From assembly GCA_026398785.1 (NCBI GenBank), contig JAPLSF010000133.1:1-36866 (forward strand): DNA of 36,866 bases. Direction: 5' to 3'. The translations under genes and the position numbers were made by a program. The DNA comes from Pseudomonadota bacterium. GTDB taxonomy: Bacteria; Pseudomonadota; Gammaproteobacteria; Steroidobacterales; Steroidobacteraceae. Position 1 is the first letter of the stretch. Every line of letters starts with the position of its first letter. Below the pieces are notes generated by a model that worked only from the letters and a program-made list of their open reading frames with translations, was not told the origin of the DNA and ran no database searches. Of this stretch, positions 16,393-33,485 are shown one piece after another.

Positions 16393-16626
16393 TCAACGTC
16401 GCAGGTGCCTGAAAGTCCATGAACGTAAGGCTCGGATCTCGCCGGTGCGATACAGCGGCACCAGTGCCGGATCGACGTGGGCGGTCGGGCTTTGCCGCTG
16501 GAAGCCGGACTGCAGGATCTTCAGTGTGTCTCCGTGCGACACCAGCAGGCACATGAGGCCGCCTCGAGCCCGGGCTGATGCCTCCAGCTCAACTGGCGAG
16601 TGGTACACCGCCCGGTCACTGGCCGT
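16393..16626 (-). pseudogene. C-terminal remnant of a histidine phosphatase (phosphoglycerate-mutase-like)
   Basis: An open frame of about 77 codons whose middle reads 'LLVSHGDTLKILQSGFQ' and then 'TGEIRAL'. This matches the last 65 residues of GpmB-like histidine phosphatases ('LLVSHGDTLQILQTAF ... LETAEIR'), including the second catalytic His. The N-terminal two thirds, with the RHG motif, are missing: the frame is closed by a TGA at 16627-16629, inside the end of the PQQ dehydrogenase gene. A GTG at 16608 has no clear ribosome-binding site. The remnant looks like the stump left when a rearrangement brought the dehydrogenase gene next to it. Confidence 0.6.
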
Positions 16627-18547
16627 TCACGGAGAACGCCGCGAGCGCGTTGCCCGGCATGTGGAAGTACGCCCCGTAGCCGGAGTTTACGTACACCATG
16701 CCGTCGTGCACGACCGGGCCGCCGCCACCGATGGAGCCGCCCTGTCCAGCCTTGCCGGAAAGCGTCGGCAGCGGCTGCGAGGTGTCGAAGCTCCATAGCA
16801 CCTTGCCGTCTTCCGTGTCGTACGCGCGCACGCGGCCGTCCATGTGGCCTGCGAAGATCACGCCGGGAATGCCGACAATCGAAGCGAGGATGCCCGGGTC
16901 GCAGTACTGTCGGCCATAGCAGACGTCGTCGGGCGTGCTTTTCCAGAGCAGTTTGCCCGTCACCGGGTCGAGCGCGTACAGGCCCGGTCGCAAGGGACCG
17001 GCCTCTTTCTCGCGCTCCGCGGAAGACTTGTCCATCGAGAACTTCATGTCGGCGATCGGCACGTAGAGTCGCTTGCCGTCGTACGCCATGCCGAACTGGA
17101 TACCACCCTGGATCGAGCCGCGGCCCACGCGGTTCGTCCACAGCATTCCTTTCTTCGGGTCGTCCGGATCGAGCGCGAGCGCCTGGCCGCTTTTGAGACC
17201 GACGAAGATGCGATCCGAGCCGTCCGGCAGCTTGCCGAGCATCGTACCGGAGCCGATGTCGAAGTCCGGACCGGCCGGCTCCGGACACGTATCGAGCCCG
17301 ATCATGCAGCCGACGTTCCACGCGTCACCCGGCACCACCTGCCATGACCAGCGAACCTGGCCGGTCTTCAGGTCGAAGGCGATCACGGCATTGCTGCGAT
17401 CGTTTGCGGGGCCCGTGTAGTTGTTGCCCGTGCCCGCGTAAAGCACGCCGCGCTTCGGATCGAGCGTAGGCGTGTTCCAGATCGCGGCGCCGGACGGCGA
17501 CCACACCGGCGTGCCGATCTTCGACTGGCCGACCTTTTTCGGCTTCTCGTCGATCGTGTACGTCTTCCACAACTGCTTGCCCGTGCGCGCATCGAGCGCG
17601 AGCATGCTGCCGCGGAACGTGCAGCAGGCGTACTTCGGGTCGGCCATCGCTTCTTCGAGCGACGACACCGGCGCGTACAGCGCGCCATCGTGATAGACGG
17701 GTGAACCCGTGATGGTTGCACTCGGGTGCTCGTCCGCCTTCACGCGCCAGATTTCCTTGCCCGTGAACGCATCGACGGCATATACGCGACCGATCAGGTC
17801 GCCGAAGAAGGCGAGGGGAGCGGCACTGCCCGAGTCGGCAGTCGACTGCACCATCACCGGTGTGCGCACCTCCGCCGTCGTCTTGAACGTCCAGCGGATG
17901 CAGCCGGTCCTGGCGTCCAGCGCGTAGACCGTGCCGTCCTGCGAGCCCGTGTAGAGCGCGCCGTAGGCAAACGTCGGGCGCGAACGCATGCGCACCGTGT
18001 TCGGGAAGGCAACCGCCCACTTGAGCTTGAGCTTCGGCACGTCCGCTGCGGCGAGTTTCGCGATGTCCGCGGCGACGAAATGATCGTTGTCCGGCGTCTG
18101 GCCCCAGCCCTGGATCGTCGGCACTTTCGCGCGATCGAAGTTCGCGGCGTCGCCGCTGCACGTCGCTGCGACCGGCGTCCTCGGCATGCCGACCGGGCTG
18201 CCCGACAGGTACTCGGCCACGTGATGCATCTGCTCGTCACTCAGTTTGACCGCCATAGGCCGCATGATTCCGAGCGACAGCGCGTCGTAGATCGCCTCCG
18301 GCGACATCATGTTGAGAAAGACCTTGACCGGAGCCTTTGGCGCCTGGCCCTCGTGGCACTGTGCGCAGTGCTCGCGATAGACCATCGCGCCGGGCTTCTG
18401 CTCGGGATCGCCGGTCTGTGAAGCGTTCATCTTCGACTTGATGTCGCTGAGGTCTGCCGGGGGCGGCGAGGACACCGCGGCGTGTGCGACCTGCAGTGCG
18501 CCGAGCGAGCACAGGGCGAAGGCGACGAACGTCCGGAAGTAATTCAT
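16616..18547 (-). CDS. PQQ-dependent quinohaemoprotein, polyvinyl-alcohol-dehydrogenase-like
   Basis: 643 aa. A signal peptide (1-23) is followed by a cytochrome c domain with haem motif CAQCH (61-65) and candidate axial Met95 or Met98, then a beta-propeller of PQQ/BamB-like repeats ('GTVYALDARTG', 'GRVYAVDAFTGKEIW', 'MLALDARTGKQLW'). Vicinal cysteines 308-309 ('YACCTFRG') recall the disulfide ring over PQQ in alcohol dehydrogenases. The order haem first, propeller second, is that of Sphingomonas polyvinyl alcohol dehydrogenase (PvaA), and differs from methanol and ethanol quinohaemoproteins, where the cytochrome is C-terminal. It should oxidise a secondary alcohol in the periplasm and pass electrons to cytochrome c; the substrate is unknown. 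ATG 18547 precedes the signal peptide directly; the longer frame to 18577 is less likely. Confidence 0.85.
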   Translation of the reverse strand: MNYFRTFVAFALCSLGALQVAHAAVSSPPPADLSDIKSKMNASQTGDPEQKPGAMVYREHCAQCHEGQAPKAPVKVFLNMMSPEAIYDALSLGIMRPMAVKLSDEQMHHVAEYLSGSPVGMPRTPVAATCSGDAANFDRAKVPTIQGWGQTPDNDHFVAADIAKLAAADVPKLKLKWAVAFPNTVRMRSRPTFAYGALYTGSQDGTVYALDARTGCIRWTFKTTAEVRTPVMVQSTADSGSAAPLAFFGDLIGRVYAVDAFTGKEIWRVKADEHPSATITGSPVYHDGALYAPVSSLEEAMADPKYACCTFRGSMLALDARTGKQLWKTYTIDEKPKKVGQSKIGTPVWSPSGAAIWNTPTLDPKRGVLYAGTGNNYTGPANDRSNAVIAFDLKTGQVRWSWQVVPGDAWNVGCMIGLDTCPEPAGPDFDIGSGTMLGKLPDGSDRIFVGLKSGQALALDPDDPKKGMLWTNRVGRGSIQGGIQFGMAYDGKRLYVPIADMKFSMDKSSAEREKEAGPLRPGLYALDPVTGKLLWKSTPDDVCYGRQYCDPGILASIVGIPGVIFAGHMDGRVRAYDTEDGKVLWSFDTSQPLPTLSGKAGQGGSIGGGGPVVHDGMVYVNSGYGAYFHMPGNALAAFSVNGQ

Positions 18548-18634
18548 GCGGGGTTTCTCGGGGCAGGGACGGTGCACGCTGCAGGCCCGATCACGCAGTT
18601 GTGGCCGGGATTTTGCCCGATCCTAGAGAGGGGC

Positions 18635-18760: not shown

Positions 18761-19657
18761 TCACGAGCTTGCGGCGCCGCGCAGCCACGCCGCTCGAATG
18801 TTCGCAGCCGTCGGCCCCGAGCCATCCGGTCGCCAACCCGGTGGCCCGAAAACATAGCCCACGAACTCACGCAGGCGACGCGCGCGGCCAACGTCACGGA
18901 ACATCGCCGCCCATTCGTGGAACGCGATCTTGATCGGGTTGTACGTGCTGATGTTGTTGATCAGCCCGTACTTCGGCGGATCGTCGTCCCGCTCGGCCAC
19001 GAACGTGCCGAACATCCGGTCCCACACCATGAACACACCGGCGTAGTTGCGATCCACGTACCGCGGGTTCGACGCGTGATGCACGCGATGGTGCGACGGC
19101 GTGTTGAACAGGTACTCGAACCATGCGGGCATCCGGCGGATGGCTTCGGTGTGAATCCAGAACTGGTAGAGCAGGTTGAGCCCGCTCTGCAGGAAGATCA
19201 TCTCCGGCGGGAAGCCGATCAGCAGCAGCACGAACCAAGGCGCCCAGGTGCCGACCAGTACGCCGGTCCAGGGCTGCCGGATCGCCGTGGAGAGGTTGTA
19301 TTCCTGCGACGAGTGATGGTTGACGTGCGCAGCCCACCAGAAGCGGCATTCGTGGCTGATGCGGTGGAACCAGTAATAGGCTAGGTCGTCGAGCACGACG
19401 ATCGCCGCCCAGGCGTAGGGCGAGCTCATGGAGATGTCGAACAGCCGGAACTGGTAGATCCACGCAAACACCACGACCGTTGCGCCGGCCAGCGCCACGT
19501 TGGTGGCGTAGTTGCCTGCGCGCATGCCGATCGACGCGAGCGTGTCCTGCAGCGTGTAGCGGCCGCGGACGAGGTGGGCCCGCACCAGCGCCATCTCGAG
19601 CAACATCAGCGCGAAACGCGCCAGCACCAGCACTTGCGCAGTGGTCAGGGCTTTCAT
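18761..19657 (-). CDS. Membrane di-iron oxidase, alkylglycerol-monooxygenase (TMEM195)-like
   Basis: 298 aa, fatty acid hydroxylase superfamily. The three histidine boxes are HRISH (98-102), HVNHH (111-115) and HRVHH (190-194). Besides these, 'HHSSQEYNLSTAIRQ', 'LLYQFWIHTEAI', 'NTPSHHRVHH' and 'DRNYAGVFMVWDRMFGTF' are the pattern of animal alkylglycerol monooxygenase and its bacterial relatives rather than of ERG3 or ceramide hydroxylases. Animal enzymes cleave ether lipids with tetrahydrobiopterin and oxygen. About four transmembrane segments are visible, two before the first box. The start ATG at 19657 lies 10 nt after GGGGGAG; a GTG three codons upstream sits too close to that site. It is the last gene of the long minus-strand run, 27 bp after the transporter. 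Confidence 0.88.
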   Translation of the reverse strand: MKALTTAQVLVLARFALMLLEMALVRAHLVRGRYTLQDTLASIGMRAGNYATNVALAGATVVVFAWIYQFRLFDISMSSPYAWAAIVVLDDLAYYWFHRISHECRFWWAAHVNHHSSQEYNLSTAIRQPWTGVLVGTWAPWFVLLLIGFPPEMIFLQSGLNLLYQFWIHTEAIRRMPAWFEYLFNTPSHHRVHHASNPRYVDRNYAGVFMVWDRMFGTFVAERDDDPPKYGLINNISTYNPIKIAFHEWAAMFRDVGRARRLREFVGYVFGPPGWRPDGSGPTAANIRAAWLRGAASS

Positions 19658-19684
19658 GTCGTGCACGCTCCCCCCGAGCGCGGT

Positions 19685-20923
19685 TCAGGCTCGCGAACGT
19701 ATACCACGTGTCGTCGACGCGCGCCGGTAACCGGATTTGCGGAAGAACAGGATCGCGGGCACCAGCGCAAGCAGGGTCAGGATCGCGGCCGTGGCGAAGA
19801 CGGCGCCGTAGCCGAACCGGTCGGTGAACAAGCCGCCGCTCGTCGCGGCCACGCCCGTGACCATCACCATGAGTGAAGCCTGCAGCGAGTAATCGGTGCC
19901 CGGCGAATGCGCCCGGCAGCGGTCCATCATCAGCGTGAACAGGGCGACGGTCGAAAGGCCATCGGCGAACTGCTCGAAGTACACGACGGCACCGACCGTA
20001 TAGAGGTCGTGCGCGCCGGCGACGACCAGCAGGTAGCCCGCGAGTCCGAGCGCCTGCATTACACCAAACCCCAGCAGGGCCTCACGGCGACCGATGCGCA
20101 GCAGCGTCGTGCCGCCGACGAAAGCGCCGATGACTCCCGCCGTGGCGCCAGCAACCCCCGTGATGACGCCGATCTGTGCCAGTGAGAAACCGCTGTCGGT
20201 GAGCAAAGGTCCCGTCATGCGCGAGGCGAGGGAGTCGCCGAATTTGTACAGCGCGATGGTTGCAAGCCACCAGCCCAGTCCCGGCTGCGCGACGAAGTCG
20301 CGGAACAGTCCGGCATAACCGTGCAGACCTTGCCACTCCGTGTGCGTCGCAGCCAGCTGCACTGGCGTGCGGGCGTCCTCCATGAACAGAACAGGTACGA
20401 TCACCAGCAGCATCAGGCACGCGAGACCGCCATAGCTCGCCTGCCAGCCGTGATGTGACACCAGCCACAGCAAGCCGCCGCTGCCCATCACCATGCCGAG
20501 CTTGTAACCGACCACCTGGATGCTGTTGCCGAGGCCGCGCCATTCCGGCTTCAGCCTGGTGATCGCATAACCGTCGGTGGCGATGTCCTGCGTCGCCGAG
20601 ACGACGTTGGCGCAGAACAGCACCGCGAGCAGCCAGGGCAGCCGGTCGACCCAGGCTTCGAAGTCGCGAGAAGCGACCAGCAGCATCAGCGCCATCGTCA
20701 GGCCGTTCAGGCCGAGCAGCCACTGCTTGCGTGTGCCGTAGCGATCGATCAGCGGGGCCCAGAGGAACTTGAGCGCCCACGGCAGCGCGAGCGCGCTGGT
20801 GAAACCGATCAGCGAAAGCGAGACGCCCTGGTCACGCAGCAGTGCCGGCAGCGCCTTCGCAATCAGGCCGGAAGGCAGGCCCTGCGCGAAGTAGAGCAGG
20901 GCGAGGAGCAGGAACAGGCGCAT
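19685..20923 (-). CDS. MFS transporter, AmpG/RhtX-FptX-like
   Basis: 412 aa, about 12 membrane segments. 'LLYFAQGLPSGLIAKALPALLRDQGVS', 'LPWALKFLWAPLIDRYG' and 'SATQDIATDGYAI' are shared with AmpG (muropeptide import) and with the RhtX/FptX siderophore importers. I cannot choose between them; its place after two peptidase domains would suit peptide or muropeptide uptake. It starts 29 bp after the M14-DUF885 stop, with GGGAG somewhat far (12 nt) from the ATG. The C-terminus is a short basic tail. It is a distant paralogue of the transporter at 370-1680. Confidence 0.85.
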   Translation of the reverse strand: MRLFLLLALLYFAQGLPSGLIAKALPALLRDQGVSLSLIGFTSALALPWALKFLWAPLIDRYGTRKQWLLGLNGLTMALMLLVASRDFEAWVDRLPWLLAVLFCANVVSATQDIATDGYAITRLKPEWRGLGNSIQVVGYKLGMVMGSGGLLWLVSHHGWQASYGGLACLMLLVIVPVLFMEDARTPVQLAATHTEWQGLHGYAGLFRDFVAQPGLGWWLATIALYKFGDSLASRMTGPLLTDSGFSLAQIGVITGVAGATAGVIGAFVGGTTLLRIGRREALLGFGVMQALGLAGYLLVVAGAHDLYTVGAVVYFEQFADGLSTVALFTLMMDRCRAHSPGTDYSLQASLMVMVTGVAATSGGLFTDRFGYGAVFATAAILTLLALVPAILFFRKSGYRRASTTRGIRSRA

Positions 20924-20952: not shown

Positions 20953-23700
20953 TCAGTGCGCGGGCGGTGTCGGGGAAGGAGCGTTCGAGATCCATTCCTG
21001 CAGCAATTCGCGCAGCAGCGGCAGCGTCACCGATCCGCGGCCGAGCACCTGGTCGTGAAACGCCCGCAGGTCGAACTGCGCGCCGAGTTTTGCCTTCGCC
21101 GCATCGCGCAGGCGCAGGATTTCGAGATTGCCGATCATGTAGGAGGGCGCCTGTCCCGGCCACGAGATGTAGCGGTTCACCTCGCCGCGCACCTGTTCGG
21201 GAGAGAGCGTCGCCTGTTCCGTGAGGAGCTTGATTGCTTCGTCGTAACTCATCCCGCGAGTGTGGATGCCGGAGTCGATCACCATGCGGGCCGAGCGGAA
21301 CTTGGCGCTGCTCAAGTAGCCGAAGCGATCGAGGTCGCCCGAATAGAGTCCCAGTTCGTCGGCGACGCGCTCTGCGTACAGCGCCCAGCCTTCGCCGAAG
21401 CCCGAGTTGTAGAGCGCGCGGACCAGTCTGTGCTGCGCCTTGGCTTCACGCGCCACCATGAGTTGCTGGTGATGCCCGGGCCATGTTTCGTGGAATGTCG
21501 TGCTCTCGATACTGGCGCGACTCTTGTGCGTCGGGTCCCAGGTGTTCAGCAGGTGTATCGGCGGCCGGCTGCCGTCTTCGGGCGGCGACTGGTATTGCCC
21601 AGGCGCGCCGGCACGTGCGCGGAATTCCGGGTACGGCTGGATCTGCACGGGCAGCGACGTGTACAGACCAAAGGCGCGCGGCATGGCGGCGCTGGCACGA
21701 TCCTGTGCGGCCTGCGCGTAGGCGATGACATCGGCTGCGGTCTTGAAGGCAAAGCGCGGCTCGGTCTTGACCATGTGCATGGCCCGGGCGAGATCGTCCG
21801 TTCCGGTCAGACGCACGGCGAGAGGACGCATCTCCTGGTCCAGCGCGTGGATCTGCTGCCAGCCCGTCTCGTAAACCTGGTTGGCTGGCATCGATACCGT
21901 GCTGAACTGGCGCACGACGGCGTCGTAACAGGCACGCCCGTTCGGGTTGGCGGACACGCCGAGCGCTTCCCGCGCGGCGGGCAAGTACGTCTGGCTCAGG
22001 AAATCACGGTAACGCCGCACGGCCGGATTGATCTCGTCGCGAACGACGGCCCGGTACGCGGCGACGAACTGCGGATCGTTGTCGCGCTCCGTCGGCGCAC
22101 TGAAAGGCGATTGCTCAGGCTTGGTCGACAGCAGTTCGTCGAGCTGCTTGATCACTTCGCGCACGATGATCTTCGGCGACGAATAGCCATCGTGCAGTCC
22201 CTGCCGCAGCAGCACGATCTCGTTGTCGATATAGCGTGGGATGGCCTTGGCGCGCCGAAGTGCGGCGGCACGCAGCGCATCGGTGCCGACCGGCTGTACG
22301 CGTGCGAGGTCGGTCAGGCTGGCCTGCCAGCCGTTCACGTAGGAGGCGACGCCCCACGATTCGAGGCGACACACTCGCGCACCCACGTTGCGTTCGATTT
22401 CGTCGCGCAACACGCCGGCGAGCACCCGGTCGGATTCGTCGTGCAATGATTCGGCCGGAATCGCCTTGAGTTGCGCGAGCACCTTGTCTTCGTAGGCGCG
22501 CCACCTGGCGACACCGGCTGCGGTATTGTCCGTGAGTGCGCCGTGGTCGGTGCCGGGCAGGTCTTCCGACGTGCCGAATTCGGGCTGCATCCGCGTCAGC
22601 GTCGCGAGGTACTCGTCGGCAATGACGTAGACAGGCGAGCGTGAAGCGGGAACCGTTGCAGCGGCGCCAGTCGGTGCCGGCGCGATCGCGCGCCAGAAAT
22701 CCCCGACCTGCTGCACCACGGCGCCTTGCGCGGCGACGCGCAGGTCAAACCTGGACCCGGCGAATGCAGGCGTCTCGACGACGATCACGGTGTGGGCTGA
22801 AGGGCCGGGGACTTTCCTGCCGTCGACGAACACCGCGGTCGCTGCCAGCAACTCGTCGATCGAGCCGTCGCGGATCGGTCCGCCCTGGTCGTCCCGGCTG
22901 ATCACGCCCTGCACGATCGACTCGCCGAACCGTGTCTTGCCCGACTGCCGCAATGGGATGCCCGTGGTTTGCAGCAGGCGGATGATTTCCGCGCCCACCG
23001 GGTTACCGTCGGCCTGGCGCCCCTGTGAATAGATGTAGCCGCCTTCCTGCGACAGTTCGTCCTCGTGCAGGTCCAGCACGAGACGAGGCGGGTACTGCTC
23101 CGCCAGGCGCAGGACGTACTGCGTCAGTGCGGCGGTTTCCGGCCCCGGCGCTTTGACAGCGCGTGGTTTGCTGCCAGCATCGAGGTCCGGCAACAAGTGC
23201 TCGGCGTCGCCCACGCTGTAGCCGCCGCCTTTTTTCCAGTCGCGCTCGGGCGTGTTGGGGTAGCGCCAGTTGTGGCGATACGCGTTGGGGTTGGCGAGCG
23301 GGATGACGACGATGGGCACGCCAGCGTCGGCGAGTTGCGTGAGGCTCGCGAGATTGGCGGCAATGGCGTTCGGCCCGGCGGGCTCCTCGCCGTGAATGCC
23401 CGACAGGATCCATAAGGCCTCGCCTCGATGCGGCGTGCGCCAGGACTTGATTGCGATTCCCTGGGTGTCGGGATAGCCATAGATCGTCTCGGAGATCCAG
23501 CCATGTTCAGTCGACAATGCGTCGAAGCGGCCCATGATCGTGCCAAGCGGAATACGCCCGTCGGTCGTGTAGTCGCTGCTGGCAGGAGTCGCTGTCGATT
23601 CGACCGGTTCGGCTGCTTGCACGACCGGTGACACCAGCAAGCCGAGCGACCAGGTGAGCGCTATGACCAGCCGTCCTGCGAGTCCGTTGGGGTGCGTCAT
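20953..23700 (-). CDS. Double peptidase: M14-like domain fused to a DUF885 metallopeptidase domain
   Basis: 915 aa, exported (signal peptide 1-29, VQA-AE). Residues about 45-335: M14-like, with zinc ligands His103, Glu106 ('SGIHGEEPAG') and His212 ('LDLHEDE') and catalytic Glu309 ('VIVVETPA'). A Pro/Ala-rich linker (about 340-355) leads to residues about 355-905: DUF885, with zinc motif HETWPGHH (737-744) and 'GFGEGWALYAE' (third ligand Glu770). The two domains normally occur as separate proteins; here there is one signal peptide and a natural linker, so it is not a lost stop codon. Both sites look intact, so it could both trim C-termini and cleave inside or at the N-terminus of peptides. ATG 23700 overlaps the permease stop (ATGA). 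An open frame extends further upstream but only by overlapping the permease gene. Confidence 0.88.
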   Translation of the reverse strand: MTHPNGLAGRLVIALTWSLGLLVSPVVQAAEPVESTATPASSDYTTDGRIPLGTIMGRFDALSTEHGWISETIYGYPDTQGIAIKSWRTPHRGEALWILSGIHGEEPAGPNAIAANLASLTQLADAGVPIVVIPLANPNAYRHNWRYPNTPERDWKKGGGYSVGDAEHLLPDLDAGSKPRAVKAPGPETAALTQYVLRLAEQYPPRLVLDLHEDELSQEGGYIYSQGRQADGNPVGAEIIRLLQTTGIPLRQSGKTRFGESIVQGVISRDDQGGPIRDGSIDELLAATAVFVDGRKVPGPSAHTVIVVETPAFAGSRFDLRVAAQGAVVQQVGDFWRAIAPAPTGAAATVPASRSPVYVIADEYLATLTRMQPEFGTSEDLPGTDHGALTDNTAAGVARWRAYEDKVLAQLKAIPAESLHDESDRVLAGVLRDEIERNVGARVCRLESWGVASYVNGWQASLTDLARVQPVGTDALRAAALRRAKAIPRYIDNEIVLLRQGLHDGYSSPKIIVREVIKQLDELLSTKPEQSPFSAPTERDNDPQFVAAYRAVVRDEINPAVRRYRDFLSQTYLPAAREALGVSANPNGRACYDAVVRQFSTVSMPANQVYETGWQQIHALDQEMRPLAVRLTGTDDLARAMHMVKTEPRFAFKTAADVIAYAQAAQDRASAAMPRAFGLYTSLPVQIQPYPEFRARAGAPGQYQSPPEDGSRPPIHLLNTWDPTHKSRASIESTTFHETWPGHHQQLMVAREAKAQHRLVRALYNSGFGEGWALYAERVADELGLYSGDLDRFGYLSSAKFRSARMVIDSGIHTRGMSYDEAIKLLTEQATLSPEQVRGEVNRYISWPGQAPSYMIGNLEILRLRDAAKAKLGAQFDLRAFHDQVLGRGSVTLPLLRELLQEWISNAPSPTPPAH

Positions 23701-24995
23701 CGTGTGATGCCCTGCCGTTTGCGCATAAGCCAGTAGAGCGGCAGGCCGGCAGCGCCCAGCACGAGTGACCAGATGAACGGTTCGCGACCGAGCCCGATGA
23801 AAGCGAAAACGACATAGGCGGTGCCTAGAACGCCGAGTACGAACAGGCTGCCCGGCAGCTTGCGCCTGCCGCGGCGTGTCAGCACCACGAGTGCAATCGC
23901 GCACAGCAGGTACAGCGGCAGGTTGGCGGCCGTCACCACCTGTGACAGGAACGTGAAGCCATCCACCATCGACTTGCTGTAGTTCATCAGGACCATCACG
24001 GTGGCGAGCACTGCGGTCAATGCCAGGGCGATCCACGGCGCCCCGCGCGAATTGAGCCCGCGGACGGCTTGCGGCAGGAAGCCATGGCGTCCCATCGAGG
24101 CAGTGAGCTCGCTGACCAACAGCGTCCAGCCGTTCAGCGCGCCGAGGCCGCTGATCACCACGAAGACCGACAGCAGGCGGCCATTGCCTGCACCGACGAA
24201 CTGGTCGAGCAGGTCGGCGAACGGCGCCGAGGACTGCGCCAGTTGCTCCTGCTCCAGCAGCAGCATCGCCATCGCCGACACACCGATGTAAATGACGGCC
24301 ATCAGCATCGTGCCGAAGAGCGTCGAACGCGGGATGTTTTTCTCCGGGTCGCGCACGCGGCCGGCCGGTACTGCCGCAGACTCGATACCGAGCATGGCGA
24401 ACAACGCGATCGTGGACGCTGCCATCAGGGCTTCCAGCGTGATCGGAGTCGTGGGCGTATGGCGCGTGTACACGGACGGTTCCGTGAACAGCAGCCAGGC
24501 ACCGAGGCCCAGGATGAAGAGCATCGGCAACAGCTTCAGCACGGTCGTGACGATCTGCACGCCGCCGCCGGTGCGCACCCCGAGAAGGTTGACGCCGACG
24601 AACAGCCAGATCAGCGCAGTGGCGAGCAAGACCGGCGACACGGCATCGAGCCCCGGCAGCACCTTGCCCAGGTAGCCGACGAGGCCGATCGCGAGCGCAG
24701 CGTTCGTGATCCAGCAGGAGACCCAGTAGCACCAGATCGCGATGTAGGCGGGCAGCTTGCCGGTGGTCTGCTCGATGTAGGTGTAAGGGCCGTCGGCCGC
24801 AGGAAACTCACGGGCGAGTTGCGCGAACACGCGCGCCAGCATAGTCATGCCCAGCACCGTGATGCCCCAGCCCAGCATCGCATTGAAGCCGTAGGGCGCC
24901 AGCGATGCCGGCAGCACGAAGATACCCATGCCGATCGTGTTGCCGACCACGAGGGCCGTGCACATCCAGAATCCGAGTTCCTTCGGCTGCTGCAT
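23697..24995 (-). CDS. APC-family amino acid permease
   Basis: 432 aa inner-membrane amino acid/polyamine transporter with 12 predicted helices. 'VVGNTIGMGIFVLPASL' is the TM1 unwound GxG segment of the APA subgroup that includes AdiC, CadB and PotE; TM6 'IALFAMLGIESAAVPAGRVRDPEKNIPRS' carries the usual glutamate and 'P.RNIPR' end. It may be an exchanger or a proton symporter. It starts 6 bp after the aminotransferase stop, with its GAGG site overlapping that stop, and ends by an ATGA overlap with the double peptidase. It therefore probably imports the amino acid, or its deaminated relative, handled by the neighbouring catabolic enzymes. Confidence 0.9.
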   Translation of the reverse strand: MQQPKELGFWMCTALVVGNTIGMGIFVLPASLAPYGFNAMLGWGITVLGMTMLARVFAQLAREFPAADGPYTYIEQTTGKLPAYIAIWCYWVSCWITNAALAIGLVGYLGKVLPGLDAVSPVLLATALIWLFVGVNLLGVRTGGGVQIVTTVLKLLPMLFILGLGAWLLFTEPSVYTRHTPTTPITLEALMAASTIALFAMLGIESAAVPAGRVRDPEKNIPRSTLFGTMLMAVIYIGVSAMAMLLLEQEQLAQSSAPFADLLDQFVGAGNGRLLSVFVVISGLGALNGWTLLVSELTASMGRHGFLPQAVRGLNSRGAPWIALALTAVLATVMVLMNYSKSMVDGFTFLSQVVTAANLPLYLLCAIALVVLTRRGRRKLPGSLFVLGVLGTAYVVFAFIGLGREPFIWSLVLGAAGLPLYWLMRKRQGITR

Positions 24996-25001
24996 TTCGC
25001 C

Positions 25002-26330
25002 TCACGCGCCCTTGCCCTGCAGGGCCTCGTCGAGCGCAGTGCGCAGCATGCCGATGGCTTCGTCGATTTGGGCGATCGTCGTCGAGAGCGGCGGCATGAA
25101 CCGCAACGTGCTGACGCCGCACGACAGCAGCAGCAGTCCGTTGTGGTAGCCGCGGGTCACCAGCCGGTCGCACAACGCCCGCGCGGGTGTCCGCTCCGCG
25201 TCGTTCTCGATCAGCTCCATGCCGATCATGAGGCCCCTGCCGCGGACTTCGCCGATGCACGGGTAGTCGCGTTGCATCTCGCGCAGGCGCCCCATGAAAT
25301 GTTCGCCGACGCGCGCCGCGTTGGCTGCGTACTCGTGCTGCACGAGGTCGAGCGTGGCGATGGCGGCCGCGCAACTCAGCGGATTACCGCCGAAGGTGTT
25401 GCCGTGGGCGCCACGCTTCCATTGCTCCATGATCGCCTTCTTCGCGATGATCGCGCCGATCGGCATGCCGGACCCGAGCCCCTTGGCGCTGGTCATGATG
25501 TCGGGCCTGACGCCCGAGTGCTCGGACGCCCACATCTTGCCGGTGCGGCCGACGCCCGACTGCACCTCGTCGAAGATCAGCAGGATGCCGTGCTCGTCGC
25601 AGAGCGCGCGCAGGCCGGCCAGGAAGCCCTCGGGCGGCCAGAGGTACCCGCCCTCACCCTGCAGGGGCTCGATGAGGATCGCGGCGACTTCGGACGCCGG
25701 CACGTTGCGTTCGAACAGCATGCGGATGTAATCGAGCACTGCCTTGCCCTGGTCCGCGCCCGCAAACAGGGGCCGGTACGGATTGGGGTACGGCACGTGC
25801 GTCACGCCGGGCATCGTCGGCGCGAAGCCCTTCTGCTGCGTGTACTTGCTCGAAGTAAACGCGAGCGACCCCATCGTGCGCCCGTGGAAGCTGCCGAGGA
25901 AGCCGATGAACCGTGGCCGGCCGGTCACGTAGCGTGCGAGCTTGATCGCGCCTTCGACCGATTCCGTGCCGGACTGGCAGAGGAAGCTCATCACTGGTTC
26001 ACCCATCGGCGCGACTTCGGCCAGGCGCTCAGTCAGGCGCGTCATGTTCTCATGCCAGTAGTCGCTCGAGACATGCAGGAACTTGTCGGCCGCCGCCTTT
26101 ATTGCCGCAACCACTTTCGGATGGGCATGTCCCGTGGAGCACACGGCAATGCCGGCGACGAAGTCGAGGAAGCGATTGCCATCGACGTCCCAGACCTCGG
26201 TGCCGCGCCCGTGCGACATCACGAACGGATAGTCGCGCGGATAGGAAGGCGAAGCGACCGACACGTCGCGCGCGAGCATGGCCCGGGCGTTCGGGCCGGG
26301 CAGGGCGGTCTTGAGATGCGGGTTCGTCAC
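25002..26330 (-). CDS. Class III PLP aminotransferase (GABA/ornithine type)
   Basis: 442 aa. PLP is bound to Lys283 ('TSAKGLGSG'), with Asp254 in 'LIFDEVQSGVGRTG' holding the pyridine nitrogen. 'SGTESVEGAIKLARY', 'GSFHGRTMGSLAFTSSK' and 'PTMPGVTHVPYPNPYR' resemble the archaeal-type ornithine/4-aminobutyrate aminotransferases and related amino acid racemases, more than E. coli GabT. It likely moves the terminal amino group of an omega-amino acid to 2-oxoglutarate, giving a semialdehyde that the aldehyde dehydrogenase in the same operon can oxidise. The start is GTG with a CCAGGAG site 6-7 nt upstream. Racemase activity is an alternative. Confidence 0.88.
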   Translation of the reverse strand: MTNPHLKTALPGPNARAMLARDVSVASPSYPRDYPFVMSHGRGTEVWDVDGNRFLDFVAGIAVCSTGHAHPKVVAAIKAAADKFLHVSSDYWHENMTRLTERLAEVAPMGEPVMSFLCQSGTESVEGAIKLARYVTGRPRFIGFLGSFHGRTMGSLAFTSSKYTQQKGFAPTMPGVTHVPYPNPYRPLFAGADQGKAVLDYIRMLFERNVPASEVAAILIEPLQGEGGYLWPPEGFLAGLRALCDEHGILLIFDEVQSGVGRTGKMWASEHSGVRPDIMTSAKGLGSGMPIGAIIAKKAIMEQWKRGAHGNTFGGNPLSCAAAIATLDLVQHEYAANAARVGEHFMGRLREMQRDYPCIGEVRGRGLMIGMELIENDAERTPARALCDRLVTRGYHNGLLLLSCGVSTLRFMPPLSTTIAQIDEAIGMLRTALDEALQGKGA

Positions 26331-26356: not shown

Positions 26357-27142
26357 TCAGGCGGGAAGTCGCACGGGGCGACGGTGCGCCTCGCGGGTGC
26401 GCGCGTGCAAGGCGCGCAGGGTCTCGAGTTCAACTTTCGTCGGCGGCGCAATCGTCCCGACGGTTGCAGCGACCTTGAGTGGCCAGCCGGTTGCGGCGCA
26501 GGCCTCGTCGACGGTCATGCCGTCGAACAGGGCCGACAGGTGCAGTTCGTCGCTTTCCGCGTGCGGCTTGAGCACGCCGAAGTCGGTGATCACGGACTGC
26601 GGACCCGTGCCGCGCATCGACGTCCTGGCGCGCGCACCATTGCCTTCGAGAAAGCCGCCACTGGTGCGGAAGTCCAGCTTCGCGACGAGGCTGCGCGGCG
26701 TCGCCTTCAGCATCACGAACGTCTGTTTGGCATGAGCTGCGATCTCCGTCGCGCCCCCGGCGCCGGGCAGCCGTGTCTTCGGCGCGTCGTACGGGCCTAT
26801 CACGGTGCTGTTCAGGTTGCCGTATCGGTCCACCTGTGCGGCGCCGAGAAAGCCGACGTCCACCCGTCCTGCCTGCAGCAGGTAACTGAAGACTTCCGGC
26901 AGCGGAATGACGCAGGCCGCCGTATCGGCGAGTTCGCCGTCGCCGATCGAGAGTGGCAGCACGTCCGGACGCGTCCCGACCGTGCCGGATTCGTAGATCA
27001 GTACGACATCGGGCGAGTGGGTGAGTCGCGCCAGATTGCACGCAGCACTCGGCAGGCCGATGCCGACGAAGCACACACAACCGTCCCACAGCAGGCGCGC
27101 CGCGGCGACGGTCATCATTTCGTCGCGAGTCCAGGCGCTCAT
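26357..27142 (-). CDS. CoA transferase, beta subunit (CatJ/PcaJ-like)
   Basis: 261 aa, family I CoA transferase small subunit. The catalytic Glu51 sits in 'VLIYESGTVG'; 'FVGIGLPSAACNLARLTHSPD', 'PLSIGDGELADTA' and 'VDVGFLGAAQVDRYGNLNSTVIG' match CatJ, the beta subunit of 3-oxoadipate CoA-transferase, and are close to GctB of glutaconate CoA-transferase. With the alpha subunit it moves CoA from a donor such as succinyl-CoA to a dicarboxylic acid. ATG 27142 overlaps the alpha-subunit stop (ATGA) and has GGGAGG upstream, so equal synthesis of the two subunits by translational coupling is expected. No other aromatic-degradation gene (cat, pca) is in the window, so the acceptor may not be 3-oxoadipate. 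Confidence 0.9.
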   Translation of the reverse strand: MSAWTRDEMMTVAAARLLWDGCVCFVGIGLPSAACNLARLTHSPDVVLIYESGTVGTRPDVLPLSIGDGELADTAACVIPLPEVFSYLLQAGRVDVGFLGAAQVDRYGNLNSTVIGPYDAPKTRLPGAGGATEIAAHAKQTFVMLKATPRSLVAKLDFRTSGGFLEGNGARARTSMRGTGPQSVITDFGVLKPHAESDELHLSALFDGMTVDEACAATGWPLKVAATVGTIAPPTKVELETLRALHARTREAHRRPVRLPA

Positions 27143-27990
27143 GCGACCTCCCGCAGGCTGGCCAGGAACGTCGCGTGGTCGCGGCTCGCCAGCACGTGCC
27201 TGTCCATCCAGGCGAGGAAGACATCGCGCTCGCGCGCGATCGCATCCCAGCGCTGGTAGAAGCCGTTGTCGCGCGCGTAATGATCGTGCACGTACGACGG
27301 ATACGCGCCGCCCGGACACTGCGCTACTGCGCTCACGATCCAGTGCGGCAGCACGACACCATTCATGGCGGGCGGCAATTCCTCGACGATATCCTCGACT
27401 GTGACGATCAAGGCGCGGGCGGCAAACGCGGCCTCGCGCTGGGCGCCGATGATGCCATGCATCGTCACGTTACCGTGCCGGTCTGCACGCTGCGCATGCA
27501 GGATCGTGACGTCTGGGTTGAGTGCGGGCACCGCTGCCAGTCGTTCGCCCGTGAACGGGCAATCGACGCTGCGGATGCGCGGATTGAAGGACGGCAGGTC
27601 GGTGCCGAGATAGCCGCGCAGCGTGGCGAACGGCAGGCCTGCGGCGCCTGCGCTGTAGGCTGCGGCCACGCCGGCATGGGTGTGCTCGTCGATCACGAGC
27701 GGCGCGGGCCACTGGTTTTCGACGGCATCGCGCAGTCGATGCAGCGAGCCAACGCCCGGATTGCCGCCCCATGAGAAAGTGAGCTTGCTCGCGCACCCCA
27801 TGCCGATCATCTGGTCGTAGATCAGATCCGGCGTCATGCGCACGAGATGCAGGTTGCGACGGCCTTGCCGGATGATCTCGTGACCCGCGGCGAACGGGAT
27901 CAGGTGCGTGAAGCCTTCGAGCGCAATGCAGGCGCCGTCGCGAACATACGCCGCGATCGCCTCAGTCAGCGTGGTGATCTTCGATGTCAA
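27139..27990 (-). CDS. CoA transferase, alpha subunit (CatI/GctA-like)
   Basis: 283 aa, partner of the preceding beta subunit. 'GACIALEGFTHLIPFAAGHEIIRQG', 'LHLVRMTPDLIYDQMIG', 'KLTFSWGGNPGVGSLHR' and 'VVLPHWIVSAVAQCPGGAYPSY' are the CatI pattern. The start appears to be TTG at 27988-27990, overlapping the aldehyde dehydrogenase stop (TTGA): the conserved N-terminus 'ITTLTEAIAAYVRDG' begins right after it and the next Met is at residue 52. There is no clear ribosome-binding site, so translation probably depends on ribosomes finishing the upstream gene. Confidence 0.9.
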   Translation of the reverse strand: MTSKITTLTEAIAAYVRDGACIALEGFTHLIPFAAGHEIIRQGRRNLHLVRMTPDLIYDQMIGMGCASKLTFSWGGNPGVGSLHRLRDAVENQWPAPLVIDEHTHAGVAAAYSAGAAGLPFATLRGYLGTDLPSFNPRIRSVDCPFTGERLAAVPALNPDVTILHAQRADRHGNVTMHGIIGAQREAAFAARALIVTVEDIVEELPPAMNGVVLPHWIVSAVAQCPGGAYPSYVHDHYARDNGFYQRWDAIARERDVFLAWMDRHVLASRDHATFLASLREVA

Positions 27991-29558
27991 GATTCAACCA
28001 CCGTGCGCGACTGTTCGCGCTGGTACTGCGCCAGGTAGTAGAACGACGCAATCGCCTTGCCGGTGGAACCCGAGCCTTTCCAGCCGCCGAACGGCTGGTA
28101 GCCAGGCCAGGCGCCGGTCGTCGCACCCTGGCGTCGATTCGCATAGGTGACGCCGGCTTCGATGTGCTCGTGGAACCACGGCACTTCGTCGGCGTTGCCG
28201 TAGAATCCTGCCGTCAGTCCGAGGCTCGTATCGTTCGCGAGCTGCATCGCCTCGTCGCGATCCTTGACCCGATGCAGCATCAGGATAGGCAGGAACATCT
28301 CCTGTCGCCACAGCGGATGCGAGAGCGGCGCTTCCGCGAGCACGGGTCGCACGTAATGCCCGCGCGCGAACTCCGCCGAATCAAGCTCGCGCCCGCCCGT
28401 GATCAGCGTGGCGCCGCCCGCCGGGAGTTCGCGCAGGTACCGTGCGTGATTCGCCGCGGCGTTCGCGTTGATGACCGGGCCCAGCCAGTTCTCGCGCCGG
28501 CAGGGATCGCCGATGCGAATCGCTTCGATCTGCACGCGCATGCGTTCGAGCAATTCGTCGGCGACCGCACGGTCGACATACAGGCGCGAGAGGGCGGAGC
28601 ACTTCTGGCCACCCATGCCATAGGCCGAGCGCACGATGCCAGCAGCGGCATCGTCGAGATTGGCCCGCGCCGTGACGATGCATGGATTCTTGCCGCCCAT
28701 CTCGGCAATGCACGGACGTGGCCAGGGTCCCGACGCCATGCGCTGCAGCAGCTGCGTGCCGACGGCAACGGAACCTGTGAACGTGATGCCGGCCGTTGCC
28801 ATATGCGACGACAGGGCTTCGCCGACCTCGCGGCCCGATCCCGACAGGTACTGAAACACGCCGGGCGGCAGCCCAGCATCGCGAATGCAGTCTGCGAGCA
28901 GGCGTCCTGCCCAGGGCGTGTCGGTGGCGCCTTTGACCACGACGGTGTTGCCGGTGACGAGCGCAGCGGCCGTCGGTCCGCCGGCGAGCGCGAGCGGAAA
29001 ATTGAAGGGCGCAATGACTGCCCACGCGCCATACGGGCGCATGACGCTGCGGTTGTGCGAGACGACGTTCGGCAACGGGTCGTCCGGCAATTCGTGCTCG
29101 TAGCTGCCGTGCTGCTCGAAGTCGTCGGCGTAGTGGCGGAAGAAGTCGACCGTCTCCTGCGCCTCGCCTAGCGCCTCCATCCGGTTCTTGCCGACTTCGA
29201 GGGCCAGCGCCGCTGCGATTTCGTAGACACGCGCTTCCATGACGTCCGCGACACGGCGCATCAGGCGCACCCGTTCGCTGGCGGGCGTGGTGCGCCACGC
29301 GGGGAACGCCTTATGCGCGGCGTCCATGGCGGCGTACGCGTCCTGCTCAGTTGCCAACGCGAACTCGCCGAGCTGGATGTCGCTGTCGATCGGGCTGCCG
29401 CGGGATACGTAGTGTTCGGCGGGCGTGTCCCCGCCATGCAGGAACAACGCGTGACGACCGCCAAGCCGCGAGCGCACCGTGGCCAGCGCTGCATCGAAGC
29501 GCTCGTGCATTGCAGGTGGCGGATCGAACATCGTGGCGTAGGTGAGGCGAAAGCTCAT
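27987..29558 (-). CDS. NAD(P)-dependent aldehyde dehydrogenase, P5C-dehydrogenase-like
   Basis: 523 aa. Catalytic Cys320 ('GGQKCSALSR'), general base Glu286 ('IAEMGGKNP') and Asn186 ('APFNFPLAL') are all present. The long N-terminus with 'DFFRHYADDFEQH' and the 'GMGGQKCSALSRLY' active site are those of the 1-pyrroline-5-carboxylate dehydrogenase (RocA-like) branch, which oxidises glutamate semialdehyde; in this operon glutarate-, succinate- or similar semialdehydes made by the flanking aminotransferases are as likely. It lies 22 bp after the upstream aminotransferase and overlaps the CoA-transferase alpha gene by 4 nt. No strong ribosome-binding site is seen before the ATG. Confidence 0.9.
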   Translation of the reverse strand: MSFRLTYATMFDPPPAMHERFDAALATVRSRLGGRHALFLHGGDTPAEHYVSRGSPIDSDIQLGEFALATEQDAYAAMDAAHKAFPAWRTTPASERVRLMRRVADVMEARVYEIAAALALEVGKNRMEALGEAQETVDFFRHYADDFEQHGSYEHELPDDPLPNVVSHNRSVMRPYGAWAVIAPFNFPLALAGGPTAAALVTGNTVVVKGATDTPWAGRLLADCIRDAGLPPGVFQYLSGSGREVGEALSSHMATAGITFTGSVAVGTQLLQRMASGPWPRPCIAEMGGKNPCIVTARANLDDAAAGIVRSAYGMGGQKCSALSRLYVDRAVADELLERMRVQIEAIRIGDPCRRENWLGPVINANAAANHARYLRELPAGGATLITGGRELDSAEFARGHYVRPVLAEAPLSHPLWRQEMFLPILMLHRVKDRDEAMQLANDTSLGLTAGFYGNADEVPWFHEHIEAGVTYANRRQGATTGAWPGYQPFGGWKGSGSTGKAIASFYYLAQYQREQSRTVVES

Positions 29559-29580: not shown

Positions 29581-30894
29581 TCAGGCAGGGAAGAAGCGCG
29601 TCAGCAGGCGATCCAGCAACGCGAGCGCGTTGGCGAGGTCGTGCTCGTCGATGACGAGCGGCGGGGCGACCAGGATCAGGTTGCCGCGCGCACCGAAAGA
29701 CACGCCCTCGTCGAGCGCGGCCCGCAGCAATGAAGCCAGTGGAGGCGGGATCTGCGGCCAGGGAGCCAGCGGTTCACGCGTGTCGCGAGCAGCGACGAGT
29801 TCGAGCACCGCAAACAGCCCGTGCCCACCACGCACGTCGCCGATGACTCGGTGCCGTTCGGCCAGTCTACGAAGTTCGCGCTCCAGTTCTGCGCCCAGAT
29901 GGCGCGAGCGCTCGATCAGGCCCCCGTCGCAGTACGCATCGATGGCAGCCACACCCGCTGCGCAGCACAACGGGTGTCCGCAGTACGTCAGGCCGGTGAC
30001 TAGCACCTGGTCTGCGAGCCGTGCGGCAATCTCATGCGACACGACCACGGCGCCGAGCGGCATCATCGCGCCGGTGAGGCCTTTCGCGAGCGTGATGGCG
30101 TCCGGCCGTCCGCCATCGCCGTAGCGCTGCCACGCGAACCATTCGCCACAACGACCGAAGCCACTCATGACTTCGTCGGCGATCAAGGGGATGCCGCGCT
30201 GCCGCGTGACGCGGCGCACTGCCGGCCAGTAACTGTCCGGAGCGACGATGCCGTTGGAGCCCGCGTTCGGTTCGACAATGACGGCGGCGACACGCTCGGC
30301 GCCGAAGTGATCGATGCGCTGCCCGATCGCGGCGGCGGCCAGCTCGCCGCATTCCGCAGCGTCCTTGCTGCCGAAAGGGCAGCGGTAGGCGTACGGTGGT
30401 TCGACATGGGTGACGCCCATTGCGTCGGGGTCGACCATGGCGCGCGTTCGAGTGTCGCCGGAGAGAGCCATCGCCAGGTGCGTCGAGCCGTGGTACGAAC
30501 GATCGCGCGCCACCATGACGCCCTTCGGCTTGCCGAAGGCCTGTCGCACGATCTTCACGGCGTGCTCGTTGGCATCGGCGCCGCCCAGCGTGAAGAACAC
30601 GCGGCCGCCTTCGAAGCCGCTCAGCTCGAGCAGGCGCGCTGCGAGGTCGGCACGAGGCTTTGCGCCCCACGCGTTGGTCACGAAGCACAGTTGCTCCGCC
30701 TGCGCGCGTATCGCAGCGACGACGCGCGGATGCTGGTGACCGAGATTGCTGCACTCCGCGAGGCTGCTCATGTCGAGCACGCGGCGCCCATCCTCGAGGT
30801 GCAGCCAGGCGCCGGCGCCACCCACGACGGTGGGTGCATTCCAGGCGGACTGCACGCACCAGCTGTGCAGGACGGTATCGCGCTCGGCAGTCAT
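29581..30894 (-). CDS. Class III PLP aminotransferase (omega-amino acid:pyruvate/taurine type)
   Basis: 437 aa. PLP Lys271 ('ITLAKGLTGAMMPLG') and Asp240 ('IADEVMSGFGRCGEW'). The N-terminal 'SWCVQSAWNAPTVVGGAGAWL' and 'LGGADANEHAVKIVRQAF' fit the group containing taurine:pyruvate, beta-alanine:pyruvate and omega-amino acid transaminases, and differ clearly from the other aminotransferase of this operon (25002-26330). Two transaminases of different subgroups in one operon suggest two amino substrates, or an interconversion of alanine and glutamate pools. A weak GGGG precedes the ATG. It lies 22 bp downstream of the M3-like peptidase. Confidence 0.87.
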   Translation of the reverse strand: MTAERDTVLHSWCVQSAWNAPTVVGGAGAWLHLEDGRRVLDMSSLAECSNLGHQHPRVVAAIRAQAEQLCFVTNAWGAKPRADLAARLLELSGFEGGRVFFTLGGADANEHAVKIVRQAFGKPKGVMVARDRSYHGSTHLAMALSGDTRTRAMVDPDAMGVTHVEPPYAYRCPFGSKDAAECGELAAAAIGQRIDHFGAERVAAVIVEPNAGSNGIVAPDSYWPAVRRVTRQRGIPLIADEVMSGFGRCGEWFAWQRYGDGGRPDAITLAKGLTGAMMPLGAVVVSHEIAARLADQVLVTGLTYCGHPLCCAAGVAAIDAYCDGGLIERSRHLGAELERELRRLAERHRVIGDVRGGHGLFAVLELVAARDTREPLAPWPQIPPPLASLLRAALDEGVSFGARGNLILVAPPLVIDEHDLANALALLDRLLTRFFPA

Positions 30895-30916: not shown

Positions 30917-32557
30917 TCATGGATTGTGCGCCCCGCAACGCTTGATCTGCTGGAGCAACGCGTCGGGTGACAGGCGCCGCCCGAGCAGGTCCTGCAGCAG
31001 TCGCTGTGTGTCGCGTTCCGAGCCGTACTGCAGCAGTTGTACGCTCAGCCAGTCGTACCAGCGCGGATTGCCGGTATCGAACGGCCCGATAGCCGCGGCG
31101 GTGCGCGCACGCATCTCTGCCGTGAGCAGGGCACCCAGCCCGTAATTGACCATGTAGCCCGGATTGCCCGCCAGCTGCACGCGCATCGCCCACCATGGAA
31201 CCTCCGGATGTGGGACGACGCGCAGGTACTCGTGCGTGATGTCGGTCCACACCGCATTGGGGTCCAGGGCTGGATCGCGCAGCAGGCGCAGTTCGAACAA
31301 TGACCAGGCGACGTCCAGCATCACGTTTGCAAACAAAGCGCGCATCGACGCGGCTTCCGCAACGGACGCTCCCAGGTAGCGTTGCTGCCAGGCCGGCTCG
31401 TGCACGCTCCACGAGGGGACATCTGCAAACGCTTCGGTGAACAGCGTATCGGGCCAGTCCATGTGGGCGGGCCGTGTGCGTATCGCGCTCACGTGCACGG
31501 CATGACCATTCTCGTGCACCAGTTCGTTGAGCGAGAACAGGCCCCCGACCGGGTAAGTTCCGAGCACACGCGCAACGGGGCGATGCCATTGCTCGTTCAC
31601 CCTGCGACCGCGCACCAGAAAGTCGGTGTAGGCGAGCGGCGATTTGTCCGGACGCGCTTCGAGGTCGAACACGACGCCGAGCTGCGTGAGATCCGCCCCC
31701 AGGTCGCGGTAAAAGAGCTGATTCGCAGGCAGCAGCGCCGCCGCCGGAATGCGTGCCTGCAATTCGCGGTTGGCCGCACCGTTGACGTACCGGAAATCCC
31801 ACGGCTCGATGGGATCGGCGGGGTTCGCATCGCGCCAGGCTGCGAGCACCTGTACCAGCCAGTGCTCGACATCCGTCGTTTCGACCCCGATGGCGCGGGC
31901 TGCCGCGTCGATTTCCGAGCCGTTCCTGCGCGCGTCGGCGGCGGCCAGCGCGATCATGCGTCGATACGGGCTGTCGGCTTCGTTCCGGCCATTGAGCGCC
32001 GTCCAGAGTAGCAAGAAGGCATCGAAGATGGCTTTCCGCTCGGCGCGGTCGTCGACGACGTGCAGCAATTGCAGTGCGGTGCCGCGATCGATCGTGCCGC
32101 CGTCGTAGTGCAGGCGATTGCCGTGCTCGACGTAGCAACTGACCAGTGCTGCACGCAGCGAGGAGTAGTCGAGGTCGCGGCGCTGGGCATCGGCGCACGT
32201 GCGGACCTGGACACCCGCAGTCGTTTCGTCGGTATCCAGCGCGGTAATCGATTGACGCATCGATGCGACGGCGTCCCGGTCGGCTGCGGCCAACCTGCCG
32301 GGTTCTATCCGGGACAGCGCCTCGTCCAACTGCCTGCGCTGCCTGTCCAGCCGGGCCTTCCACGCGGCCAGGTCCTTGCCGCCGTGCAACGTCGCACCAC
32401 CGGACTCGATGTAGCCGACGGCGCCGACGGCATCGAGGTAGTCGAGGAAAGCAGATTCAGCCGTCGCGACGGTTACGTTCGGGGGCGCGTCCGCTTGTGC
32501 CGCAGGCAGCGCGGCACCAAGAGCGAGCAAGATAAAGGCCATGCCGAGCATCCGCAT
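30917..32557 (-). CDS. Exported M3-like zinc metallopeptidase
   Basis: 546 aa. Signal peptide 1-22 (AQA-D), unusual for M3 peptidases, which are mostly cytosolic. The zinc motif is HENGH (348-352) in 'LNELVHENGHAVH', followed by 'LFTEAFADVPSW', whose Glu375 is the expected third ligand; the arrangement is that of the thimet/oligopeptidase-F clan (gluzincins), although the sequence is distant from both. An alpha-helical N-terminal half of about 300 residues would form the channel wall. It should cut short peptides in the periplasm. ATG 32557 is chosen because the signal peptide starts there; an open frame extends upstream to 32686 but overlaps the end of the TerB-HIRAN gene. The exact family needs a profile search. 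Confidence 0.82.
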   Translation of the reverse strand: MRMLGMAFILLALGAALPAAQADAPPNVTVATAESAFLDYLDAVGAVGYIESGGATLHGGKDLAAWKARLDRQRRQLDEALSRIEPGRLAAADRDAVASMRQSITALDTDETTAGVQVRTCADAQRRDLDYSSLRAALVSCYVEHGNRLHYDGGTIDRGTALQLLHVVDDRAERKAIFDAFLLLWTALNGRNEADSPYRRMIALAAADARRNGSEIDAAARAIGVETTDVEHWLVQVLAAWRDANPADPIEPWDFRYVNGAANRELQARIPAAALLPANQLFYRDLGADLTQLGVVFDLEARPDKSPLAYTDFLVRGRRVNEQWHRPVARVLGTYPVGGLFSLNELVHENGHAVHVSAIRTRPAHMDWPDTLFTEAFADVPSWSVHEPAWQQRYLGASVAEAASMRALFANVMLDVAWSLFELRLLRDPALDPNAVWTDITHEYLRVVPHPEVPWWAMRVQLAGNPGYMVNYGLGALLTAEMRARTAAAIGPFDTGNPRWYDWLSVQLLQYGSERDTQRLLQDLLGRRLSPDALLQQIKRCGAHNP

Positions 32558-32624
32558 GGCCGAATCATAGCCATGCGACCCGCGAAGAGCGATCCCGGGT
32601 CGTCCTTGACGCGGGCACCCCGAT

Positions 32625-33485
32625 TCAGTGCGACAACACTGCGAGCACGAGCAGTGCGGCGGCGGCGATGCCGACGAGCACCGCAAGCGCCCGGCCCCAG
32701 CGACCTGCCGTTGCCGGCGATCGCGCGGAAGCCACGCCTGAAGGGTCGATGGCCTCGATCCCGGCGGGGAAGAAACGCACCTGCACGACCGGGATCGGGC
32801 TGCGCCCCGAGCTGCGAATGTGAACGATATGCGCGCTGCAGTGATGTCCTTGCCGCAGCAGCGGAAGGAACTGCCGGGACTCGGCGGCCGGCACGAAACC
32901 GATCTGGGCGCCGTCAGGCAGCTTCACTGCGATTGCTGCGTCACCGCGCGAGCCGGCCACAGTGAGATCGAGCGTCACAGCCAGTCCAGCAAACGCGTGC
33001 TGCTCGATCAACGCGGGCCGACCTTCCTGTCGCACGCCGGCCACCATGAACGTGACGTCGACGGTGGGCGCGGGCCTGGCCTGAGCCGGCCCAGCAACAG
33101 CGGCCGGCACTGCGGATACCTGCACACCTGCCGACGGAGCGGATCTTTCCGCTTGCTCGCGCGCCGCGTGCGCCTGCTGCCGGGCCTCGAAAGGCAGCAC
33201 CGTTTCGACCGCGCGATAGACTTCGCTGTATTCCTCCGCCGTGATCTTGCCGTCGGCGAGTACGCGTTCGATCACGCCACGCAGGAATCGAGCGGCCTGC
33301 ATTTCGGCCGCGTCGGCATCGCCCAGCCATTGCCGCAGCCCCGCGATCTCTTCCGGGGCCAGTCGACCGTCGGCCGTCACGGTCTGGCACAACGACAGCA
33401 GCTCGGCACCGAGTTCGGTTGCGAGCTGCGGCCTGGTCAGCGCGAACTGGCGGGTGAGGTACGTCGGCAGCCCGGTCGCGGTCAT
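32625..33485 (-). CDS. TerB-like / HIRAN-like protein with C-terminal membrane anchor
   Basis: 286 aa, not a named family. Residues 20-100: a TerB-like all-helical domain with two acidic loops ('TADGRLAPEE', 'LADGKITAEE') that may bind metal ions, as in tellurite-resistance TerB. Residues 105-140: Ala/Pro-rich linker. Residues about 142-240: HIRAN-like domain ('DVTFMVAGVRQEGRPALIEQ', 'AIAVKLPDGAQIGFVPAAES', 'LPLLRQGHHCSAHIVHI'), a module that in eukaryotes and bacteria binds DNA ends or damaged DNA. Residues 263-284: one transmembrane helix with only a dipeptide after it, so the protein is probably tail-anchored with its domains in the cytoplasm. ATG 33485 overlaps the SMP-30 stop (ATGA). A longer upstream frame exists only within the SMP-30 gene. 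Confidence 0.75.
   Translation of the reverse strand: MTATGLPTYLTRQFALTRPQLATELGAELLSLCQTVTADGRLAPEEIAGLRQWLGDADAAEMQAARFLRGVIERVLADGKITAEEYSEVYRAVETVLPFEARQQAHAAREQAERSAPSAGVQVSAVPAAVAGPAQARPAPTVDVTFMVAGVRQEGRPALIEQHAFAGLAVTLDLTVAGSRGDAAIAVKLPDGAQIGFVPAAESRQFLPLLRQGHHCSAHIVHIRSSGRSPIPVVQVRFFPAGIEAIDPSGVASARSPATAGRWGRALAVLVGIAAAALLVLAVLSH

Follow-up and report, generated by a model that had tools for sequence, protein, structure and literature searches.

The window, a 36,866-nucleotide stretch of the draft assembly GCA_026398785.1 (contig JAPLSF010000133.1, family Steroidobacteraceae), carries a reverse-strand gene whose 915 codons stay open in one frame (open reading frame listing) and whose product joins an M14-like domain to a DUF885 domain, in line with the original prediction of one polypeptide with two unrelated zinc peptidase domains. 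The gene sits in a cluster with genes for an APC-family amino-acid permease, two class III aminotransferases, an aldehyde dehydrogenase and two CoA-transferase subunits on one side, and an MFS permease and a fatty-acid-hydroxylase family protein on the other (Table 1). The MFS permease scores 245.9 bits against the AmpG muropeptide permease model, below the cut-off of 350. At the head of the cluster stands a peptidase with a HENGH motif (30917-32686, reverse strand), weakly M3/M32-like below the cut-offs, of which the closest relative (G007, below) has a copy 87% identical. A single signal-peptide-like N-terminus serves both domains, as had been proposed, with none on the DUF885 part, and the fused product is predicted to be exported.

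Table 1 Features of the fused gene, its operon and related loci in other genomes. Positions refer to the window unless a locus handle is given.
Feature	Position	Strand	Basis or remark
Fused gene, 915 aa	20953..23700	(-)	Signal peptide, M14/AstE-AspA-like domain, linker, DUF885 domain
Signal-peptide-like N-terminus, residues 1-30 (MTHPNGLAGRLVIALTWSLGLLVSPVVQAA)	23611..23700	(-)	Judged by eye
M14/AstE-AspA-like zinc hydrolase domain, residues about 40-338	22687..23583	(-)	Alignment of relatives, Pfam, solved relatives
HGEE, predicted zinc ligands H103 and E106	23383..23394	(-)	Alignment
H212, predicted third zinc ligand (LDLHEDEL)	23065..23067	(-)	Alignment, solved relatives
E309, predicted catalytic Glu (VVETPAF)	22774..22776	(-)	Alignment, solved relatives
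Ala/Pro linker, residues about 339-356	22633..22686	(-)	Matches C-terminal tail of unfused G007 protein
DUF885 domain, full length, without own signal peptide, residues about 357-907	20980..22632	(-)	Pfam, alignment
HETWPGHH, residues 737-744, DUF885 active-site motif	21469..21492	(-)	Alignment
E770 in GEGW, invariant, predicted third ligand	21391..21393	(-)	Alignment
APC-family amino-acid permease	23697..24995	(-)	Stop overlaps fused-gene start by 4 bases (ATGA)
Class III aminotransferase	25002..26330	(-)	NCBIfam NF004426, acetylornithine aminotransferase family protein, 559 bits vs cut-off 552
CoA-transferase subunit	26357..27319	(-)	ORF bounds; true start may be internal
CoA-transferase subunit	27139..27990	(-)	
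Aldehyde dehydrogenase	27987..29558	(-)	
Class III aminotransferase	29581..30894	(-)	
MFS permease, AmpG/RhtX-like below cut-offs	19685..20923	(-)	Directly after M14 in G007
Fatty-acid-hydroxylase family protein	18761..19666	(-)	Syntenic with G007
M14 N-terminal to S15 X-Pro dipeptidyl-peptidase-type domain	L126:3690-6695, L109:4052-5449	(+), (+)	Two genomes
EEP (Exo_endo_phos) domain, middle region, M14	L106:4446-6866, L107:5834-8263	(+), (-)	Two genomes; L107 is G149
APC amino-acid permease-M14 single open frame, G032	L053:6689-9010	(-)	M14 signal peptide would serve as extra transmembrane segment

Judged by profiles and alignment, the N-terminal half is a divergent M14/AstE-AspA-type domain, for which "M14-like" was correct and the label of carboxypeptidase is unearned. 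Its top Pfam match is the succinylglutamate desuccinylase/aspartoacylase catalytic domain (AstE_AspA_cat, PF24827; 23.3 bits, below the cut-off of 25), Peptidase_M14 (PF00246) scores 16.7 bits against a cut-off of 21.6, and the best NCBIfam match, a weak one, is N-acetylornithine deacetylase (NF052223; 24.3 bits, cut-off 400). Among curated models, those closest to it describe amide deacylases no less than carboxypeptidases, and the half may equally be a deacylase. Two relatives, both in M14-S15 fusions, do pass the PF24827 cut-off. The four residues originally assigned to the active site, H103, E106, H212 and E309, are placed correctly and invariant in all nine aligned M14 sequences, and they follow the order of HxxE, second His and catalytic Glu of M14/AstE-AspA hydrolases. 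The nearest solved structures (3ieh, 2qvp and 3b2y, named metallopeptidases or uncharacterized protein) align in part across the HGEE, HED and ETP motifs and have the HED and ETP motifs in common with the window domain. Unlike M14/AstE-AspA hydrolases at large, the window domain falls below both Pfam cut-offs, and its subfamily is predicted to be exported, is narrow and has an invariant NWRYxN motif; among the genomes searched, the subfamily proper is restricted to the order of the window genome. The dN/dS ratio, calculated for the M14 half only, is 0.07-0.15, and this half is under purifying selection.

The C-terminal half matches Pfam DUF885 (PF05960) with 468.5 bits against a cut-off of 32.4, residues 383-899 covering positions 11-531 of the 532 in the profile. 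DUF885 proteins are predicted zinc peptidases of the Peptidase_MA clan, and a catalytic zinc site has been predicted for one of them (PMC12572635). Like other members, the window half is full length and has HExxPGHH and a downstream Glu; HETWPGHH at 737 and Glu770 lie where they had been placed, and the motif and the Glu are kept in 10 of 10 DUF885 proteins (the window included), with variation at the two x positions. Solved relatives are 3o0y, 3iuk and 3u24. We found no DUF885 enzyme with a known substrate in the open-licence literature. The closest relatives of the fused half are stand-alone proteins of other genomes (up to 45% identical), which start with their own signal or lipoprotein-like peptide, whereas the window domain is C-terminal in a fusion. 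Some ten DUF885 genes besides this one are present in the 3.1 Mb draft genome, and relatives show the expansion too. A recent duplication of one of these copies was rejected as the source of the fused half, the matched paralogues being about 28-34% identical to it against the 45% found elsewhere. For the fused protein as a whole we infer zinc binding, both activities, an order of cleavage and a shared substrate. An AlphaFold2 model of the full protein, built from an alignment of two sequences, reached a pLDDT of 36, too low for use.

The history of the join can be read from the closest relative, the Gammaproteobacteria MAG S06.Bin044 (G007; GenBank JAABQQ010000187.1). Its operon has the gene order of the window (aminotransferase, aldehyde dehydrogenase, two CoA-transferase subunits, aminotransferase, APC permease, M14, MFS permease, fatty-acid hydroxylase) at 80-97% protein identity gene by gene, with flanking genes on both sides at 87-97% and an M14 protein 79-88% identical to the window half, but its M14 and MFS genes are neighbors, with no DUF885 separating them: the M14 gene ends ...ALASAPAPAGVAMGAPAARAQ at its stop codon, and no more than about 60 bases further on comes the MFS gene. 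The window linker (IAPAPTGAAATVPASRSP) can be aligned with this M14 tail nearly to the tail end, which places the join at the old stop codon or close to it. We also considered that DUF885 had been inserted inside the M14 gene, with the C-terminal tail PSPTPPAH of the window protein as the old M14 tail, and rejected this because, in a local alignment, the regions preceding the MFS gene matched no better than shuffled sequence (P 0.19). In the M14 tree the window and G007 domains are sisters (support 98/93), the outgroups G002 and G003 are unfused, and both domains are equidistant from the outgroups, the window M14 having evolved no faster. On this comparison of sequences, the simplest and most likely history is that DUF885 was gained on the window lineage and the fusion is recent, although DUF885 may instead have been lost in G007. 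The original prediction had taken consistently split homologues as a sign against the fusion. M14 is indeed unfused to DUF885 in every other genome, yet the unfused state looks ancestral rather than a sign of sequencing error, because G007 has the same operon without DUF885. The window and G007 thus offer a before-and-after pair for the study of a young enzyme fusion.

No second M14-DUF885 fusion was found, either in full-protein searches of about 975 genomes (overlapping samples of relatives, order, class and phylum, with scoring in the larger samples confined to the first few candidates of each genome) or in profile searches with the M14 half over about 1,000 genomes (order, phylum and two families), so the proposed search for other proteins with this domain order came back empty; a plasmid collection held no fused copy covering 80% of the query. 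The two domains occurred as separate proteins in all other genomes searched, as had been stated, and we found no earlier report of the fusion in the open-licence literature. Long DUF885 open frames of this and other genomes (L003, L131 and L132) were discarded as spurious fusions, their coding signal beginning at their own signal peptides. The novelty lies in the domain architecture, the families themselves being already known.

The M14 subfamily does have other partners. In two genomes it is N-terminal to an S15 domain: G1129 encodes a 1002-residue open frame with a full X-Pro dipeptidyl-peptidase-type domain and PepX_C, and G306 the beginning of such a fusion at a contig end. As in the window, an M14 domain of the same subfamily is followed by a short Ala/Pro linker and a C-terminal domain of another peptidase family; these fusions differ in having a serine X-Pro dipeptidyl-peptidase-type domain in place of DUF885 and in that their M14 domains form a separate branch of the tree. 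Two further genomes, G189 and G149, join an endonuclease/exonuclease/phosphatase-family (EEP) domain and an unassigned middle region to M14 in one protein, and in G149 the gene for this protein has as its neighbor a separate S15 gene, whose product is 73% identical to the S15 domain of the fusion. In G032 a single frame encodes an APC permease and M14, and the coding signal continues through the junction. Unfused peptidase genes also lie near M14: a DUF885-family gene directly after it in G1132 (L128:2347-4146, reverse strand, 72.9 bits, apparently without HExxPGHH), M16 in G181 and G299, M20 in G149 and M3 in G189; in G106 M14 is immediately preceded by a TonB receptor gene, and genes for an amino-acid permease and an aminotransferase lie in the vicinity. 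On the M14 tree the fused state takes about five changes, at least three of them forced by well-supported branches. An association of the subfamily with other peptidases is suggestive only, these being peptidase-rich genomes, while the fusions to other exported enzymes in distant relatives suggest a helper in exported peptide breakdown. That the subfamily is an accessory "uncapping" module, with at least four independent partners (DUF885, S15, EEP and amino-acid permease) because it removes a blocking modification or terminal residue, is an unlikely generalization in our judgment. The repeated fusions flag an uncharacterised M14 subfamily enzyme tied to peptide degradation in several lineages.

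The operon gives a context for the fused enzyme. An APC permease gene directly precedes M14 in G007, G002, G032 and G004, and aminotransferase, CoA-transferase and dehydrogenase genes are kept with M14 in G007, G032 and G004; judging by family annotations, the cluster probably takes up and degrades an omega- or basic amino acid. Our best explanation, in which we place about as much belief as doubt, is a lineage-specific fusion within a catabolic operon, serving exported breakdown of peptides or N-acyl amino acids that feeds the cluster. A DUF885 metallopeptidase without a signal peptide would have been joined in frame to the 3′ end of the operonic M14/AstE-AspA-type hydrolase gene, giving one exported protein in which a short Ala/Pro tether connects two predicted zinc active sites. 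DUF885 would cut peptide bonds outside the cytoplasm and the M14-type domain would take off a terminal residue or an acyl cap; the freed amino acid would be imported by the coupled APC permease and degraded by the aminotransferases, the aldehyde dehydrogenase and the CoA-transferase. The fused DUF885 would bring specificity for a second kind of bond to this location. The original suggestion that both domains handle the same peptide draws indirect support from the recurrent fusion to and adjacency with peptidases and from the amino-acid catabolic operon; the carboxypeptidase activity and the "unusual C-terminus" that it proposed gained none. DUF885 is widespread, and its tether to an M14-type hydrolase in an amino-acid catabolic operon narrows the substrates to test.

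Three other readings were weighed. The fusion could be incidental, a DUF885 gene having landed in frame after M14, with unrelated substrates, a shared signal peptide and no joint function. Such an accident, possible though not what we favor, fits an architecture seen in one genome among those searched, the abundance of DUF885 genes in that genome and a junction almost at the old stop codon. The neighboring peptidases vary among genomes and are possibly gene-neighborhood noise, which counts against the best explanation, as do the occurrence of the fusion in a single genome and the Pfam scores of the M14 half below both cut-offs. Against an accident, fusion and adjacency of the subfamily with other peptidases in other lineages look more frequent than chance insertion would give, a suggestive point. 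A somewhat doubtful variant of the best explanation, with which its confidence overlaps, has the M14-type domain as an amide deacylase that uncaps N-acyl amino acids or peptides, after which DUF885 releases or degrades them. The desuccinylase/aspartoacylase and N-acetylornithine deacetylase matches and the acetylornithine-aminotransferase-family enzyme in the operon speak for it; that every match lies below its curated cut-off, and the names given to the nearest solved structures, speak against it.

An assembly or sequencing artefact (a lost stop codon or a chimeric join) is very improbable. The genome is a draft of 409 contigs, the fusion is a singleton, and third-position GC dips in the linker. 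Both flanks, however, are syntenic with G007, so that a chimeric assembly would require two false joins, one on each side of a single gene. Between V329 and M371 the frame lacks ATG, GTG and TTG codons, and the DUF885 part is therefore not separately translatable from the junction; it has no start codon or signal peptide of its own, and the mere loss of a boundary between two complete genes does not account for it. GC at the three codon positions is near-equal in the two halves (0.67/0.51/0.81 and 0.68/0.48/0.81), and GC3 exceeds GC2 along the whole protein with the exception of 20 linker codons (GC3 0.55, GC2 0.75), a pattern that is gone upstream of the chosen start, M1. We conclude that the M14-DUF885 fusion is real and no chimera of its flanks.

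Elsewhere in the window, a second and typical M14 zinc carboxypeptidase of 592 aa (PF00246, 77.8 bits) is encoded at 4691-6469 on the forward strand. On the reverse strand lie a protein whose TPR repeats come after a weak TIR-like N-terminus that scores below the cut-off (8886-10544), a CBB3-type cytochrome c joined to a PQQ-type beta-propeller (16616-18577) and a retropepsin-like aspartyl protease family protein with two matched stretches (34381-35355).
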